Below, piece after piece: positions 24,512 to 33,181 of a DNA stretch of 33,181 nucleotides. A program made the position numbers and the translations under genes. Source of the stretch: Ramlibacter sp. (GTDB taxonomy: Bacteria; Pseudomonadota; Gammaproteobacteria; Burkholderiales; Burkholderiaceae_C); the NCBI GenBank assembly GCA_021323335.1, contig JAJTCN010000067.1, forward strand, positions 1 to 33,181, written 5' to 3'. Numbering within the stretch: position 1 is the first letter of the stretch; every line of letters begins with the position of its first letter. The notes below the pieces were generated by a model, which was not told the DNA's origin, did no database searches, and was given only the letters and a program-made list of their open reading frames with translations.

Positions 24512-24598
24512 GCACGGGGCAGCCCGTGCCCCGCGGCCTCACCCGAGGCAACCCCGGTTATTCAGCGGCGTCCTGCGCGCCGCCGAGCTTGTGGAGGC
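24512..24598 (+). promoter_or_regulatory. Candidate trp attenuator without a U-tract
   Basis: Three stems are visible between trpL and trpE. GCACGGG/CCCGTGC (24512-24518, 24523-24529, loop GCAG) is perfect. GCCTC/GAGGC (24536-24540, 24545-24549) has an alternative partner, GAGGC at 24594-24598, which overlaps the trpE Shine-Dalgarno GGAGG (24593-24597). GCGGCG/CGCCGC (24565-24570, 24578-24583) is the third. CCCGTG can also pair with CACGGG at 24449-24454 inside trpL. No run of four or more Ts follows any stem, so a classical intrinsic terminator is missing. Control at the level of trpE translation is a reasonable alternative (inference). Confidence 0.5.
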
Positions 24599-24605
24599 TC
24601 ACCCC

Positions 24606-26126
24606 TTGATCACCGAACTCGAATTCAAGAGCCTTGCGTTGCAGGGCTACAACCGCATTCCGCTCATCGCGGAAGCTTTCGCGGACCTCGAAACCCCTTT
24701 GTCGCTGTACCTGAAGCTGGCCCATGCCAAGGGTGGCGGCAAGCTCAGCTTCCTGCTGGAGTCCGTGGTGGGCGGCGAGCGCTTCGGCCGCTACAGCTTC
24801 ATCGGCCTGCCCGCGCGCACCTTCCTGCGCGCCAGCGGCTTCGGTGAGGCGGCGAAGACGGAGGTCGTGACGGATGGCCAGGTGGTGGAAACCGCCGGCG
24901 GCAATCCGCTGGACTTCATCGAGGCCTACCAGCAGCGCTTCAAGGTGGCCTTGCGGCCGGGGCTGCCGCGCTTTTGCGGCGGGCTGGCGGGCTACTTCGG
25001 CTACGACACCGTGCGCTACATCGAGAAGAAGCTTGAGAAGAGCTGCCCGCCGGACACGCTGGGCACGCCGGACATCCTGCTGCTGCAGTGCGAGGAACTG
25101 GCGGTCATCGACAACCTGTCGGGCAAGCTGTACCTGATCGTCTATGTCGACCCGGGCAAGTCCGAGGCGTACCCCAACGGCAAGAAGCGCCTGCGCGAGC
25201 TGAAGGACCAGCTGAAGTATTCGGTGAGCGCGCCGACGGTGCGCCAGACCGAGACCTTCCCGGCGGAGCGCGAGTTCGCCAAGGCCGATTACATCCAGGC
25301 TGTGGAGCGTGCGAAGGACCTCATCGCCGCTGGCGACTTCATGCAGGTGCAGGTGGGGCAGCGCATCAAGAAGCGCTATACCGAGTCGCCGCTGACGCTG
25401 TACCGCGCCTTGCGGTCGCTGAACCCCAGCCCGTACATGTACTTCTACAACTTCACCGGCGCGGCGGCGGGCGGCAGCGACTTCCATGTCGTCGGCGCCT
25501 CGCCGGAGATCCTGGTGCGGCAGGAGCACACGCCCGAAGGCCAGAAGATCACCATCCGGCCGCTGGCCGGCACGCGTCCGCGCGGCGCGACGCCGGAGGT
25601 GGACAAGGCGGTGGAGGTGGAGCTGCTGTCCGATGCCAAGGAGCGGGCCGAGCACGTGATGCTGATCGACCTGGCGCGCAACGACATCGGGCGCATCGCG
25701 AAGATCGGCTCGGTGAAGGTGTCGGATGCATTCGTGATCGAGCGTTACAGCCATGTGATGCACATCGTCAGCAACGTCGAGGGCATCCTGAACGAGGGCA
25801 TGACCAACATGGACGTGCTGCGCGCCACCTTCCCGGCCGGCACCCTGACCGGCGCGCCGAAGGTGCATGCGATGGAGCTGATCGACCAGATGGAGCCGGT
25901 CAAGCGCGGAATCTATGGGGGGGCTTGCGGTTACCTCTCGTACGCGGGCGACATGGACGTGGCGATCGCGATCCGGACGGGAATCATCAAGGACCAGATG
26001 CTGTACGTCCAGGCAGCGGCGGGGGTGGTGGCCGATTCGGTGCCCGAGCTGGAGTGGAAGGAGACTGAGGCGAAGGCTCGGGCTCTTCTTCGCGCTTCGG
26101 AGTTGGTGGAGGAGGGGCTGGAATGA
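24606..26126 (+). CDS. trpE: Anthranilate synthase component I
   Basis: TrpE converts chorismate, with ammonia from TrpG, to anthranilate. The 506-residue protein has the tryptophan feedback-binding LLES motif (residues 50-53, in SFLLESVVGGERFGRYSFIG), NPSPYMYF, the LAGTRPRG active-site turn, ERAEHVMLIDLARND and GGACGYLSYAGDMDVAIAIR. TTG at 24606 is the chosen start: GGAGG (24593-24597) lies 8 nt upstream and the protein then begins with the usual MITELEFKSL. The upstream in-frame GTG at 24591 overlaps that ribosome site. A slow TTG start may limit TrpE. The stop overlaps the ATG of the inserted GxxExxY gene as ATGA (26123-26126). Confidence 0.97.
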   Translation: MITELEFKSLALQGYNRIPLIAEAFADLETPLSLYLKLAHAKGGGKLSFLLESVVGGERFGRYSFIGLPARTFLRASGFGEAAKTEVVTDGQVVETAGGNPLDFIEAYQQRFKVALRPGLPRFCGGLAGYFGYDTVRYIEKKLEKSCPPDTLGTPDILLLQCEELAVIDNLSGKLYLIVYVDPGKSEAYPNGKKRLRELKDQLKYSVSAPTVRQTETFPAEREFAKADYIQAVERAKDLIAAGDFMQVQVGQRIKKRYTESPLTLYRALRSLNPSPYMYFYNFTGAAAGGSDFHVVGASPEILVRQEHTPEGQKITIRPLAGTRPRGATPEVDKAVEVELLSDAKERAEHVMLIDLARNDIGRIAKIGSVKVSDAFVIERYSHVMHIVSNVEGILNEGMTNMDVLRATFPAGTLTGAPKVHAMELIDQMEPVKRGIYGGACGYLSYAGDMDVAIAIRTGIIKDQMLYVQAAAGVVADSVPELEWKETEAKARALLRASELVEEGLE

Positions 26127-26566
26127 ATTTCCAACAGCCGGACGCAAAAGTCGCAAAGGTCTCGCAAAAGTCGCAAAAGGAACAGCCCGAAATTGAAGGG
26201 GACTGTTCTCACGCGATCATCGGCGCAGCCGTGGAAGTGCAGCGAGTGCTGGGAACTGGACTGCTGGAAAGTGCCTATGCGGCGGCCCTGGCCATCGAAC
26301 TGGCAGAGCGGGGCCTCCATTTCCAGCGTGAAGTTGCGGTGTCTGGGAAATACAAAGGCTTCGATATCGGCGTTCAGTACCGCGCGGACTTCATCGTCGA
26401 GGGCACCGTGATCGTGGAGGTCAAGGCGGCAGAGGGAGTTGCAGACGCTCACCGGGCGCAACTGCTCTCCTACTTGCGGCTTTCAGGGATGAAGGTGGGG
26501 TTACTGCTCAACTTCCACGTTTTCCCCGTGACGAAGGGAATTCACCGGCTGGTCAACAAGCTATGA
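26123..26566 (+). CDS. GxxExxY protein (PDDEXK-like nuclease fold)
   Basis: A 147-residue protein of the GxxExxY family, predicted to have a PD-(D/E)XK nuclease fold; the family's role is unknown. The core begins near residue 29 ([16 protein letters not shown]), the name-giving motif is GLLESAY (46-52), and Asp89 (YRADF) with Glu99-x-Lys101 (VIVEVKA) are the likely metal-site residues. The C-terminal [18 protein letters not shown] and [12 protein letters not shown] complete the family. Residues 5-20 are encoded by the left inverted repeat. The only in-frame start before the core is the ATG formed by the trpE stop region, so translation is probably coupled to trpE. It is the sole gene of the inserted cassette. 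Confidence 0.85.
26135..26182 (+). repeat. Left 48-bp inverted repeat of the GxxExxY cassette
   Basis: It begins CAGCCGGACGC and contains four CGCAAA(A)G modules arranged as two ~20-bp imperfect units (CGCAAAAGTCGCAAA). It matches the complement of 26577-26624 at 46 of 48 positions. It lies inside the GxxExxY reading frame and is stop-free in that frame, encoding a Lys/Ser/Gln-rich N-terminus. Confidence 0.92.
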
Positions 26567-26576
26567 AACCCTTGTC

Positions 26577-26624
26577 TTCCTTTTGCGACTTTTGCGGAAC
26601 CTTTGCGACTTTTGCGTCCGGCTG
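26577..26624 (-). repeat. Right 48-bp inverted repeat of the GxxExxY cassette
   Basis: Mirror copy of 26135-26182; the two differences are in the centre (GTCTCG against GTTCCG). It starts 10 nt after the GxxExxY stop and ends 24 nt before the trpG ATG. The two arms could pair in the trp transcript across the small gene. Confidence 0.92.
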
Positions 26625-26648
26625 CCCGCATTTCAACGGAGGCAAACG

Positions 26649-27218
26649 ATGAAGGTTCTGATGGTCGACAACTACGACAGCTTCACCTACAACATCGTCC
26701 AGTACTTCGGTGAACTGGGCGCCGAGGTCGAAGTGTTTCGCAACGACGAGATCACCATCGACCAGATCGCTGCGCGCAAACCCGATCGGCTCGTCATCTC
26801 GCCCGGCCCCTGTTCGCCGGCGGAAGCGGGGATCTCGGTCGAGGCCATCCGCCACTTCGCCGGCAAGATCCCCATCCTCGGCGTCTGCCTCGGCCACCAG
26901 GCCATCGGCGCGGCGATGGGCGGCAAGATCGTCCGCGCGCAACAACTGATGCACGGCAAGACCAGCGAGATCACCACCACGCGGGAAGGCGTCTTCGCCG
27001 GCCTGCCGGAAAAGTTCACCGTCAACCGCTACCACTCGCTCGCCATCGAGCGCGCCAGCTGCCCGCCCGCGCTGAAGGTGACGGCCTGGACGCCCGACGG
27101 CGAAATCATGGGCGTGCGCCACCAGGCGCTGCCCATCGAAGGCGTCCAGTTCCATCCCGAGTCCATCCTCACCGAGCATGGCCACGCGATGCTGAAGAAT
27201 TTCCTGGAGCAGAAGTGA
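26649..27218 (+). CDS. trpG: Anthranilate synthase component II (glutamine amidotransferase)
   Basis: A 189-residue class I glutamine amidotransferase that supplies ammonia to TrpE; such subunits are often shared with folate synthesis (PabA). The first strand is [16 protein letters not shown], the oxyanion segment is [11 protein letters not shown], the nucleophile is Cys80 in GVCLGHQ, and the His169/Glu171 pair is in [14 protein letters not shown]. It has its own GGAGG at 26638-26642, 6 nt before the ATG. It is separated from trpE by the inserted cassette and runs directly into the threonine-aldolase gene. Confidence 0.96.
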
Positions 27219-27220
27219 CC

Positions 27221-28264
27221 ATGAAAGCCATCGACCTGCGCAGCGACACCGTCACGCAACCCACGCCGGACATGCGCGCCGCCATGGCGGCCGCGCCGCT
27301 GGGCGACGACGTGTTCGGCGACGACCCCAGCGTCAATGCGCTGCAGGACAAGATCGCCGGCCTGCTCGGGTTCGAGGCCGCCCTGTTCGTGCCCACTGGC
27401 ACCCAGAGCAACCTGTGCGCGGTGCTGTCGCATTGCCAGCGCGGGGACGAGTACATCGTCGGGCAGATGCAGCATGCCTACCGATGGGAAGGCGGCGGCG
27501 CCGCCGTGTTCGGCAGCGTGCAGCCGCAGCCGCTGGAGCACCAGCCGGATGGCACGCTCGCCGTGGCGGACATCGCCGCGGCCATCAAGCCGGACGATCC
27601 GCACTTCGCGCGCAGCCGCCTGCTGGCGCTGGAGAACACGCTCGGCGGCAAGGTGCTGCCGCTGGCTTACTTGGAGGAGGCGACGGCCTTCGCGCGATCC
27701 AAGGGCCTGTCCACCCACCTGGACGGCGCCCGCCTGTTCAATGCCGCGGTGGCGCAGGCCGCCGCCAGCGGCAGCGATGCGCGCGCCGAGGCACGCCGCA
27801 TCGCGGGGCTGTTCGACAGCGTGTCGGTGTGCTTCAGCAAGGGCCTCGGTGCGCCGGTCGGCTCGGCCCTGTGCGGCTCGAAGGAGCTGATCGGCCGCGC
27901 CCGCCGCATCCGCAAGATGGCCGGCGGCGGCATGCGCCAGGCCGGCGTGCTGGCGGCGGCGGCGACCTACGCCCTGGACCACCATGTCGAGCGGCTGGCG
28001 AAGGACCACGCCCTGGCGCGGCGCCTGGCGGACGGCCTGTCCGGCATCGAGGGCTTCCAGGTCGAGCCGCCGCAGACCAACATCCTGTTCGTCGACCTGG
28101 TGGGGCCGGCACGGGAGAAGTCGGCCGGGCTGGTGGACGCCCTGGCGCGCGAAGGCGTGCTGGCCACGGGCCTGTACCGCCTGCGTTTCGTCACCCACCT
28201 GGACGTCGACGCGGCGGGCGTCGACCGCGCCATCGCGGCGGTCCGCGCCTACTTCCACGCCTGA
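27221..28264 (+). CDS. ltaE: Low-specificity L-threonine aldolase
   Basis: A 347-residue fold-type I PLP enzyme that splits L-threonine or L-allo-threonine into glycine and acetaldehyde. Signatures are the N-terminal IDLRSDTVTQPTPDMRAAMA, GDDVFGDDPSVNALQ, ALENTLGGKVLP, STHLDGARLFNAAV and the PLP-binding Lys207 in VCFSKGLGAPVGSAL. The start at ATG 27221 gives the standard N-terminus; a GTG at 27215 overlapping the trpG stop would add two residues and lies 5 nt after GGAG. It is an unexpected member of the trp run, sitting between trpG and trpD. The exporter following 10 bp later may handle the same amino acids (inference). Confidence 0.93.
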   Translation: MKAIDLRSDTVTQPTPDMRAAMAAAPLGDDVFGDDPSVNALQDKIAGLLGFEAALFVPTGTQSNLCAVLSHCQRGDEYIVGQMQHAYRWEGGGAAVFGSVQPQPLEHQPDGTLAVADIAAAIKPDDPHFARSRLLALENTLGGKVLPLAYLEEATAFARSKGLSTHLDGARLFNAAVAQAAASGSDARAEARRIAGLFDSVSVCFSKGLGAPVGSALCGSKELIGRARRIRKMAGGGMRQAGVLAAAATYALDHHVERLAKDHALARRLADGLSGIEGFQVEPPQTNILFVDLVGPAREKSAGLVDALAREGVLATGLYRLRFVTHLDVDAAGVDRAIAAVRAYFHA

Positions 28265-28274
28265 GGGGCAGGCC

Positions 28275-28916
28275 ATGCCGGATGCGCCGCAACTGGTCCT
28301 GTTCATCGCCGCCGGCCTGCTGCTGAACCTGACGCCGGGGCCGGACGTCCTCTACATCGTCAGCAACGCATTGCGCGGCGGAACGCGCGCCGGCGTGGTC
28401 GCGGGGCTGGGTATCACCGCGGGGTGCTTTGTGCATGTGTTCTCGGCGGCGGTGGGGGTGGGGGCGCTGCTGGCGACGTCGGCGATGGCGTTCACGGTGC
28501 TCAAATGGATCGGGGCGGCGTACCTGGTGTGGGTGGGGGTGAAGTTGCTCCTTGCCAAGGCTGCAAGCTGGGGTTCGCAAAGCTCACCGCCAGCCTACGA
28601 CGGGGCGCTGTGGGCGGTGTTTCGCGGCGGCTTCCTGACCAACGTGCTGAACCCGAAAGTCGCGATCTTCTTCCTGGCGTTCGTGCCGCAGTTCATCACG
28701 CCGGAGGCCGAGCACAAGGCGCTGGCCTTCGTGCTGCTCGGCACCTTGTTCAACATCAACAGCGTGGCGGTGAATTCCGCCTGGGCCGTCGGCGCCGGCT
28801 GGATGGCGCGCCACGACCGCGTGCAGCGCGGCATGCACTGGCTGGACCGCACGGCGGGCGCCATGTTCATCGCGTTTGGCCTGCGGCTGGCCCTGGCCGA
28901 CAATCCCACCCGATAA
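28275..28916 (+). CDS. LysE/RhtB-family amino-acid exporter
   Basis: A 213-residue membrane protein with about six hydrophobic segments. The family signature is in the first loop: [21 protein letters not shown] followed by [15 protein letters not shown], then a second conserved block [23 protein letters not shown]. Members export homoserine, threonine, lysine, leucine or related compounds by proton exchange. It starts 10 bp after ltaE and precedes trpD by 19 bp, so it is in the trp transcription unit. The stretch around 28440-28555 uses GGG and GTG codons unusually heavily. The substrate is unknown; threonine-related compounds are plausible given ltaE. Confidence 0.9.
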
Positions 28917-28935: not shown

Positions 28936-29967
28936 ATGTCCATCACCCCCCAGGAAGCGCTGCAGCGCACGATCGAGCACCGCGAGATCTTCCACGACGA
29001 GATGCTGCACGTGATGCGCCTGATCATGAGCGGCGAGCTGTCGCCCGTCATGACGGCCGCGCTCATCACGGGCCTGCGCGTGAAGAAGGAGACCATCGGC
29101 GAGATCACCGCGGCCGCGCAAGTGATGCGCGAGTTCTCGACCAAGGTGAACGTGGCGGACAAGACGCACCTGCTCGACATCGTGGGCACCGGCGGCGACG
29201 GCTCGCACACCTTCAACATCTCGACCTGCTCGATGTTCGTCGCGGCGGCGGCCGGCGCCAAGGTCAGCAAGCACGGCGGCCGCAGCGTCTCCAGCAAGAG
29301 CGGCAGCGCCGACGTGCTCGAGGCGATGGGCCTGAACATCAACCTGTCGCCGGATGCGATAGCGAAGTGCATCCAGGAAACCGGGATCGGCTTCATGTTC
29401 GCGCCCAACCACCATCCGGCGATGAAGAACGTCGCCCCCGTGCGCAAGGAACTGGGCGTGCGCACCATCTTCAACATCCTCGGCCCGCTCACCAATCCGG
29501 CGGGCGCGCCCAACATCCTGATGGGCGTGTTCCACCCCGACCTGGTGGGCATCCAGGTCCGCGCCCTGCAGCGCCTGGGCGCCGAGCACGCGCTCGTGGT
29601 GTACGGGCGCGACGGCATGGACGAAGTGAGCCTGGGCGCCGCCACCATGGTGGGCGAGCTGCGCAATGGCGAGATCCGCGAGTACGAGGTCCATCCGGAA
29701 GACTTCGGCCTGCCGATGGCGAGCAACCGCGCCTTCAAGGTCGAGACGCCGCAGGAGTCGCTGGCCCTGATGCGCCAGGTGCTGGACAACCAGCCCGGCG
29801 CGGCGCGCGACATCGTCATCCTCAATGCCGGGGCCGCGCTCTATGCCGCCAACGTCGTGCCGGACATCCCGCAGGGCATTGCCAAGGCCACGGCGGCCAT
29901 CGTGTCGGGCGCGGCGAAGGCCAAGCTGGAGCAGCTGGTGGGCGTGTCCCAGCGGCTGGCGAGCTGA
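28936..29967 (+). CDS. trpD: Anthranilate phosphoribosyltransferase
   Basis: TrpD transfers phosphoribose from PRPP to anthranilate, the second step of the tryptophan branch. Its 343 residues are normal. The N-terminal helical domain ([20 protein letters not shown]) is followed by the PRPP-binding GTGGDG (84-89), [36 protein letters not shown], and [26 protein letters not shown] upstream gives a good ribosome site. It is followed 2 nt later by trpC. Confidence 0.97.
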
Positions 29968-32546: not shown

Positions 32547-32665
32547 GGACCACATTAGCAACATCCGTGCGACAGCGCCGTGACAGCTCGCGGCGGCGTC
32601 AGCCTCCTCTCAGGCGCGTCAGGTTTCACGCCGCCCCGGTGCCGTCTTTTGCCGATCGATCGTGC

Positions 32666-32671
32666 TATAGT
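32666..32671 (+). promoter_or_regulatory. -10 element of the tRNA-Tyr/Gly/Thr-tuf unit
   Basis: TATAGT ends 13 nt before the 5' end of tRNA-Tyr, the right distance for a stable-RNA promoter with a short leader. A -35 is not well matched; GTCTTT at 32644-32649 lies 16 bp upstream but is weak. Confidence 0.5.
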
Positions 32672-32684
32672 CTGCGGTTCGCCG

Positions 32685-32769
32685 GAGGGGTGCCCGAGTG
32701 GCTAAAGGGGGCAGACTGTAAATCTGTTGGCTTACGCCTACGCTGGTTCGAATCCAGCCTCCTCCACCA
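32685..32769 (+). tRNA. tRNA-Tyr (anticodon GTA)
   Basis: A class II tRNA of 85 nt including the encoded CCA. The acceptor GGAGGGG pairs with CTCCTCC (one G-T). The anticodon GTA is at 32718-32720, a long variable arm follows, and the T-arm GGTTCGAATCC is standard. It is the first tRNA of the cluster leading to tuf. Confidence 0.97.
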
Positions 32770-32866
32770 GGTTTTTTCGCTTGAGAAAGCCTGGGCGTTG
32801 TGTGCGAAACGGTTGAGTGGTCGGCGGCAGGAAGTCCGCGCAGGGTCTCGTGAAGTACGTCCCGAT

Positions 32867-32940
32867 GCGGGTGTAGTTCAATGGTAGAACCTTAGCCTTC
32901 CAAGCTAATGACGCGGGTTCGATTCCCGCCACCCGCTCCA
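32867..32940 (+). tRNA. tRNA-Gly (anticodon TCC)
   Basis: 74 nt with encoded CCA. The acceptor GCGGGTG pairs with CACCCGC. The anticodon loop CTTCCAA places TCC at 32899-32901, reading GGA and GGG. The T-arm GGTTCGATTCC is standard. It lies 97 nt after tRNA-Tyr. Confidence 0.97.
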
Positions 32941-32969
32941 GTCGACCGTCTTGCCGGCGAAAAGAATTC

Positions 32970-33181
<212 letters not shown>

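Follow-up and report, generated by a model that had tools for sequence, protein, structure and literature searches.

The locus between trpE and trpG of a Ramlibacter draft genome raises the question of what a lone nuclease-like gene enclosed by inverted repeats is doing within a biosynthetic operon: whether the unit is mobile, and which enzyme would serve it. The window, which is the whole stretch of 33,181 nucleotides that was analysed, is contig C63 of a genome assembled as 4.49 Mb in 165 contigs (G000). The inverted arms and the dispersed hairpins described below point to very small mobile elements of a family not previously recognised, which the enzyme encoded at this locus apparently serves.

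The locus between trpE and trpG

A first-pass annotation of this DNA had described 48-bp inverted repeats around a single GxxExxY gene, and this was borne out. The two arms are identical at 46 of 48 nucleotides (59 nt at 88% when the pairing is extended), and nothing lies between them but a gene that matches PF13366 (2e-37) and TIGR04256 (4.8e-39). The further claim that removal of 26132-26634 restores an ordinary trpE-trpG junction is equally correct, as the junction obtained is clean. The ATTTC seen on both outer sides (26127-26131 and 26630-26634) is a 5-bp match at chance level; it is no evidence of target duplication, because direct repeats of at least 5 bp are as common in mismatched flanks (48%) as in the own flanks of 30 dispersed elements (40%). 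The GxxExxY ORF begins with an ATG (26123) that overlaps the stop codon of trpE; translation thus runs through the left arm, which encodes the N-terminal tail of the protein. There is one copy of the gene in this genome.

Table 1. Features of the trpE-trpG region of the window.
Feature	Position	Strand	Details
trpE (Chorismate_bind), upstream host gene	24591..26126	+	profile match
GxxExxY / PDDEXK_3 gene, 147 aa	26123..26566	+	profile matches; predicted model mean pLDDT 86.4
Left arm	26135..26182	+	four CGCAAA units at 26143, 26152, 26163, 26172; spacing 9-11-9 nt
PF13366 domain	26201..26548	+	conserved E49, D89, E99, K101, Q113, Y117
Right arm, inverted copy (46/48)	26577..26624	-	TTTGCG units at 26582, 26591, 26602, 26611
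trpG (GATase), downstream host gene	26649..27218	+	profile match

Beyond trpG, a beta-eliminating lyase gene (27215-28264), which we take to be threonine-aldolase-like, and the next ORF, presumably LysE-like, occupy the region 27215-28900 and separate trpG from the next trp gene (Glycos_transf_3, 28936-29964). Three tRNA genes within 32684-33041 are the only features returned by an Rfam scan of the window, and a 106-aa ORF that overlaps them (32567-32887) is probably spurious.

The gene clearly belongs to the GxxExxY family, with profile scores of 133.3 bits for TIGR04256 (curated cut-off 35) and 128.6 bits for PF13366 (cut-off 22). Conservation was assessed in an alignment of 88 proteins, comprising the 15 genes of the family survey and 73 of the 80 cross-phylum loci described below; six loci with stops, one duplicate and the genus-survey genes other than L001 and L040 were left out. 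The eponymous motif (G46, E49, Y52) is present in all 88 proteins, and D89 is conserved in 86, E99, K101 and Q113 in 87 each and Y117 in 84. The combination of D...ExK with QxxxY is the motif of RecB/Cas4-type PD-(D/E)XK nucleases, and the window protein has the D, ExK and QxxxY residues as in such enzymes; by inference, they constitute the putative active site. The profiles of a defence library yield weak Cas4 matches (3.6e-4) and one RT-associated PDDEXK model. Among the PHROGs, a family with no assigned function matches at 2.4e-4 and an endonuclease matches more weakly. No solved relative was found by sequence up to an E-value of 10.

Dispersed hairpins and their distribution

The first-pass annotation had singled out the repeat as worth pursuing in this genome and its relatives, and in both it recurs, forming short hairpins by the dozen. 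The arm core CGCAAARNNCGCAAA occurs 139 times in the window's genome (69 forward, 70 reverse), against 0 for the reversed pattern. These motifs are dispersed as hairpins of about 100 bp that contain no gene. The 30 elements read in fetched stretches measure 88-121 bp from first to last unit and consist of two gene-like arms with a short middle. Their outer foot is CGGACAGCCGGA, conservation fades 11-16 nt or so past the units, and the consensus foot of 60 arms from this genome is TCCGGCTGTCCG. Six hairpins, four from this genome and two from others, fold at z-scores of -10 to -14 relative to shuffled sequences. Rfam returns mostly miRNA-type models below cut-off, which may arise from any long hairpin, and a few other sub-threshold matches. 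It is the gene-free hairpin, not the gene unit of about 500 bp, that has multiplied. A target-site duplication was sought at fixed and free offsets in the 30 own-genome elements and rejected, the only signal being a 4-bp self-match of the arm foot; the mean longest repeat is 4.53 in own flanks and 4.61 in mismatched flanks. Two own-genome hairpins (L255 and L259) have additional tandem units in one arm, so that the number of units varies.

Among 200 genomes of the same bacterial family, PF13366 was detected in 14, in 15 genes, with one gene per genome in 13 of the 14. Thirteen genes are found in the trpE-trpG interval or immediately ahead of trpG, and the other two (L041 and L045, both in G100) lie in another operon. 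The layout of the arms is constant and their sequence is species-specific, with CGCAAA, CGCGAA, CGCAGA, CACAGAG, CGCCAAG and mixtures of these; two genes (L043 and L044) are armless. When CGCAAAN{2,3}CGCAAA is counted in all 200 genomes, G113 (206), G000 (139), G015 (76), G083 (65), G035 (19), G064 (17), G097 (17) and G019 (13) stand out, all eight of them gene-bearing, and the highest gene-less genomes are G018 (12) and G028 (11). The top seven all fall within the 14 gene-bearing genomes (hypergeometric, 1.5e-9).

Other arm variants were counted in 44 genomes, comprising all 14 gene-bearing genomes and 30 of the 186 others; the variant of G100, CGCCAAGG, was left out of these counts. The highest counts of CGCGAARNNCGCGAAR are found in G071 (202), G064 (134), G035 (79), G015 (32) and G083 (26), with a gene-less maximum of 13 (G198). 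For CGCAGARNNCGCAGAR, they are found in G097 (220), G035 (69), G015 (40), G071 (30), G000 (21), G113 (19) and G083 (18), with a gene-less maximum of 5. CACAGAGNCACNGAG is restricted to G013 (80), G035 (72) and G030 (59), and the other 41 genomes have none; its reversed control gives 32, 17 and 14 in this set of three and 0 in the other 41, because the reversed motif falls inside the same tandem arrays. The most frequent variant is the arm type of the resident gene, or one of its types, for CGCGAA in G071 and G064, CGCAGA in G097, CACAGAG in G013, and CGCAAA in G000, G015 and G113. Overall, nine of the 14 gene-bearing genomes have a clear hairpin population, usually of the gene's own arm variant, and the excess is present in G015, which is a single contig. 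Two genomes with intact-looking genes and decayed arms (G019 and G164) have no clear hairpin excess, and the two with armless genes (G012 and G122) have no hairpin population, as the explanation preferred below predicts. There are also mismatches: G035 contains its 72 CACAGAG repeats (e.g. L097) although its gene has CGC arms, and the 59 CACAGAG hairpin motifs of G030 (e.g. L099) occur with no PF13366 match in that genome.

The association is sharper within the window's genus, where PF13366 was detected in 23 of 60 genomes (16 of the 45 more complete ones), with one gene per genome in 21 of the 23 and 24 of 25 loci directly before trpG. CGCRRARNNCGCRRAR was counted in all 60 genomes, an excess being defined as more than twice the reversed control, a threshold chosen after the counts had been seen. 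An excess is found in 17 of the 23 gene-bearing genomes and in one of the 37 gene-less genomes (Fisher, 4e-9). All 17 genomes with a CGC-armed gene show it, at a lowest ratio of 2.5, and the highest gene-less ratio is 1.08 apart from G210, which has 132 matches against 33 in the control yet no PF13366 match. None of the five genomes with only armless genes has an excess (ratios 0.29-1.56); hairpin remnants may explain the ratios of G238 (1.56) and G240 (1.32). Arm variants vary among species within the genus. The GxxExxY and TrpG stretches of one of its genomes, G212, are identical to those of Ramlibacter monticola (L228 and L143), in agreement with Ramlibacter as the most likely genus. In G220, whose gene has CACAGAGG arms, there is no CGC excess, and CACAGAG occurs five times in a 400-kb stretch (control 0); stretches of 400 kb from G210 and G097 contain none. 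In G223, two loci on one contig (C31), L218 and L238, have the same protein core in opposite orientation and are possibly one gene; the pair may be an assembly artefact.

Loss of arms coincides with loss of conserved residues. All eight armless genes of the two surveys, six from the genus and two from the family, lack Y117, and seven of the eight lack further residues. D89 is missing in only two of the 88 aligned proteins, the armless L043 and L044, both of which also have Y117A. In the genus, L233 and L234 have E99Q, Q113E and Y117A; L236 has D89H, E99Q, Q113E and Y117G; L237 has E49A, D89T, E99Q, Q113E and Y117G; L239 has E49D, H110R and Y117H; and L229 has Y117S alone. The motif glutamate itself is thus changed in L237 and L239, both outside the 88-protein alignment. 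Armed genus genes retain the listed residues, with the exception of L235 (G227), which is armed, carries K101E and is frameshifted; the hairpins of G227 persist, as expected after a recent loss. Arms, hairpins and active-site-type residues have been lost jointly in family and genus, although the number of independent losses is below eight because several armless genes are related and partly form one clade, their lesions differing nonetheless. The rule is not strict in the wider set, where one cross-phylum gene (L162) is armless by either test and keeps D89, E99, K101, Q113 and Y117. The seven armless copies at the trp site (L233, L234, L236, L237, L239, L043 and L044) still have open reading frames despite the loss of residues, and the pN/pS of armless copies (0.18-0.42, ten closest pairs of six copies, compared with 0.13-0.22 for armed genes) indicates that some constraint is left; they are possibly retained for operon coupling or for another function.

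That same-type arms might flank GxxExxY genes elsewhere, as the first-pass annotation had raised, proved true far beyond the family. The family alignment was used to scan 84,980 species, and the best 80 loci among the matches listed were followed up; by record title these come from Pseudomonadota, Planctomycetota, Bacteroidota, Acidobacteriota, Chloroflexota, Verrucomicrobiota, Armatimonadota, Methanosarcinales and others, although single phylum assignments may be wrong because most of the loci are metagenome-assembled. In 58 of these 80, the inverted-repeat score around the gene exceeds the 99th percentile of 790 control intervals from the same loci. The motif C[GA]CN[AG]AG taken twice, which was written after the arms had been inspected, occurs inverted on both flanks in 61 of the 80 (6 for the reversed motif) and on either flank in 75 (12 for the reversed motif). 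Hairpins more than 1 kb from the gene number 18, in 14 of the loci, against 2 in 2 loci for the control.

Mobility and competing explanations

The first-pass annotation had proposed a mobile one-gene cassette, and this stands only in part. The gene is patchily distributed, occurring in 14 of the 200 genomes of the family and in 23 of the 60 of the genus, and copies occur off the trp site (L232 in G202, L041 and L045 in G100). Frequent jumping of the unit of about 500 bp is not supported: there is a single copy here, and trpG follows the gene directly at 13 of the 15 loci of the family and 24 of the 25 of the genus. Empty trpE-trpG sites do exist: among 28 gene-less family genomes read at trpG, 14 are empty by inspection, with the end of trpE just upstream of trpG and neither gene nor arms, and the remainder have other sequence upstream. 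Divergent lineages of the protein occupy the site, L032 and L042 being 41% and 52% identical to the window protein, and L217 combines a TrpG 95% like that of L220 with a GxxExxY protein at most 54% like any of 36 others. GxxExxY and TrpG distance matrices are uncorrelated (-0.02 for 37 loci, 0.05 for 20 genus loci; 43 loci were tried, and L032, L034, L137, L144, L218 and L224 were dropped for want of a clean extraction), consistent with genes having been exchanged or re-inserted at the trp site, although the proteins are short and nothing is built on it. The preference for this site is compatible with a candidate homing endonuclease element.

For the hairpins, one site was compared among relatives. 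A 520-nt query joining the flanks of the hairpin at G000:C78:2176-2272 matches across the join in at least 19 of the 60 genus genomes, whereas in the window's own genome its halves are 147 bp apart. In 29 other loci read at this site, no such hairpin is found in the spacer or in the 160 nt inspected, and some have unrelated repeats. The presence of the hairpin is lineage-specific at this one site, where its exact ends are not mappable because the spacers of the relatives are too diverged. The spacer precedes a gene that is presumably xerC-like, and in L271, L275, L276, L280 and L285 it holds other, unrelated palindromic or repeated sequences; it is perhaps a hot spot for short repeats.

Inverted arms, dispersed hairpins, their co-occurrence with the gene, the usual match of variants and one lineage-specific hairpin are the observations to be explained. 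The reading towards which we lean, with some reserve, is that the nuclease spreads the hairpins by acting in trans on its own arm type. The GxxExxY protein would be a PD-(D/E)XK nuclease resident in the genome, usually encoded by a single gene and probably of the RecB/Cas4/lambda-exonuclease kind. Its targets would be arms built of tandem CRCRRAG units, those flanking its gene being its cognate sites. With a unit about every ten bases, the repeated sites would lie on the same face of the helix, to which a nuclease multimer could bind. It would copy or maintain two-arm hairpins of about 80-120 bp across the chromosome, as RAYTs are thought to do for REPINs, by cutting the hairpin, probably as a single strand or cruciform during replication, and the product would be joined into breaks or gaps elsewhere with no target duplication. 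The enzyme gene itself would seldom move, remaining patchy and favouring the trpE-trpG site. The suggestion in the first-pass annotation that a trans-acting enzyme recognises the repeats is close to this reading, the GxxExxY protein being that enzyme. The broader proposition is that a class of mobile hairpins, seen at loci of many bacterial phyla and some archaea, has neither transposase nor recombinase and depends on a Cas4/RecB-like PD-(D/E)XK nuclease as its only dedicated enzyme, and that arms and enzyme coevolve, the gene staying mostly static while hairpins multiply. This is put forward more tentatively, our judgement of it being almost evenly balanced.

A different enzyme, either a RAYT or an unknown transposase, could move the hairpins, with the GxxExxY gene as trapped cargo. 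Hairpins without a matching gene (G210, G030 and the CACAGAG set of G035) would be accounted for in this way, and most of these genomes have a gene of the Y1 type. However, Y1 transposase-like genes (PF01797) are found in 13 of the 14 genomes with a GxxExxY gene and in 25 of 30 without one, and of 45 loci around Y1/RAYT-like genes (30 and 15 from partly overlapping sets, including four of the 20 Y1 matches of G015), only one, that of an insertion-sequence-type copy in G015, shows a pair of arms, some 1.2 kb from the gene; in another four a loose motif matches once, as a stray, and in the rest not at all. The usual REPIN enzyme therefore does not track these hairpins, and a RAYT/Y1 protein was rejected as a sufficient driver, being about as common where hairpins are absent and lacking arms in 44 of 45 loci scanned. 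The cargo explanation is unlikely given also that GxxExxY genes are enclosed by such arms across many phyla, and that the genes found armless in the surveys lack active-site residues and sit in genomes without hairpins. The one exception to the latter, G202, has a second, intact and armed gene (L232) away from trp, in addition to a degenerate armless copy at trp.

We give a similarly low probability to the hairpins being host-serving binding sites for replication, repair or chromosome organisation that are read by the nuclease and spread slowly by recombination, the two forming a cellular, non-mobile pair. This would agree with a usually single-copy gene in a fixed place, with pN/pS values of 0.13-0.22 that indicate strong purifying selection on armed genes (17 genes, 14 closest pairs), and with a near-absence from plasmids (7 of 72,556 records, all below 60% identity) and phages (0 of 50,697 records). 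The single fixed copy does not decide the matter, because RAYTs, the enzymes credited with mobilising REPINs, are likewise single-copy and vertically inherited, according to excerpts of PMC8049555. A housekeeping role is harder to reconcile with patchiness within one genus (23 of 60 genomes, 16 of 45 more complete ones), with arm variants that differ among its species, and with the empty sites in relatives at the one hairpin inspected. If instead gene and arms formed an autonomous transposon of about 500 bp, with the hairpins as MITE-like internal-deletion derivatives, the arms shared by gene unit and hairpins and the copies that G202 and G100 carry away from trp would follow; this is very improbable, since 13 of the 14 gene-bearing genomes of the family and 21 of the 23 of the genus have just one gene, mostly at the same site, and no target duplications were found at 30 own-genome elements. 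An assembly artefact or chance repeat, such as the G223 pair may be, can be all but discounted for the system as a whole, since strong excesses over the control occur in the window's genome and in the surveys of 200 and 60 genomes, including the single-contig G015.

Comparison with known systems

The GxxExxY family name (TIGR04256/PF13366) gives no function, and no report linking GxxExxY genes to hairpin repeats was found in the open-licence PMC literature. In the excerpts retrieved from that literature, 'GxxExxY' appears as a passing domain label or gene-table entry and 'PF13366' in passing, and none of these excerpts ties them to repeats. Cas4 proteins hold an Fe-S cluster with four cysteines; the window protein has one cysteine and thus no Cas4-type four-cysteine cluster, which sets it apart from Cas4 proper. 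As to its resemblance to Cas4, RecB and lambda-exonuclease nucleases as a group, the predicted model gives a best Foldseek E-value of only 2e-3. The hairpins differ from MITEs of a DDE transposon in that no target-site duplication is found at the own-genome elements. TIRtrons and TIRYTs, as presented in excerpts of PMC3733652, likewise have a gene within long terminal inverted repeats that also form a dispersed family, but their genes encode tyrosine transposases and not a PD-(D/E)XK nuclease.

The closest parallel is with REPINs and RAYTs. Both systems comprise many short dispersed hairpins of two inverted arms and an enzyme gene, single-copy in most genomes, that is flanked by the same arms, to judge from the portions of PMC3116915 and PMC8049555 consulted. 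The enzyme here is a PF13366 PD-(D/E)XK protein, whereas RAYTs are PF01797 Y1/HUH proteins; the arms here are tandem CRCRRAG units; and in 60 arms of the window's genome neither a GTAG nor a CGTC tag marks the foot of the hairpin. By enzyme and tag, the system lies outside REPIN-RAYT, although its hairpins and arm-flanked gene agree with it.

Mobile elements are classed by their enzymes, and a class based on PD-(D/E)XK alone would, if real, represent a new chemistry for spreading DNA. It would also represent a second origin of REPIN-like hairpins, and it would provide a function for a widespread family so far named from its motif alone. It predicts that genomes with unexplained CRCRRAG-type repeats will contain a GxxExxY gene between arms of the same kind. 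The behaviour of the system resembles that of REPINs, although by enzyme class it would be new, and less so if the gene were a hitch-hiker.
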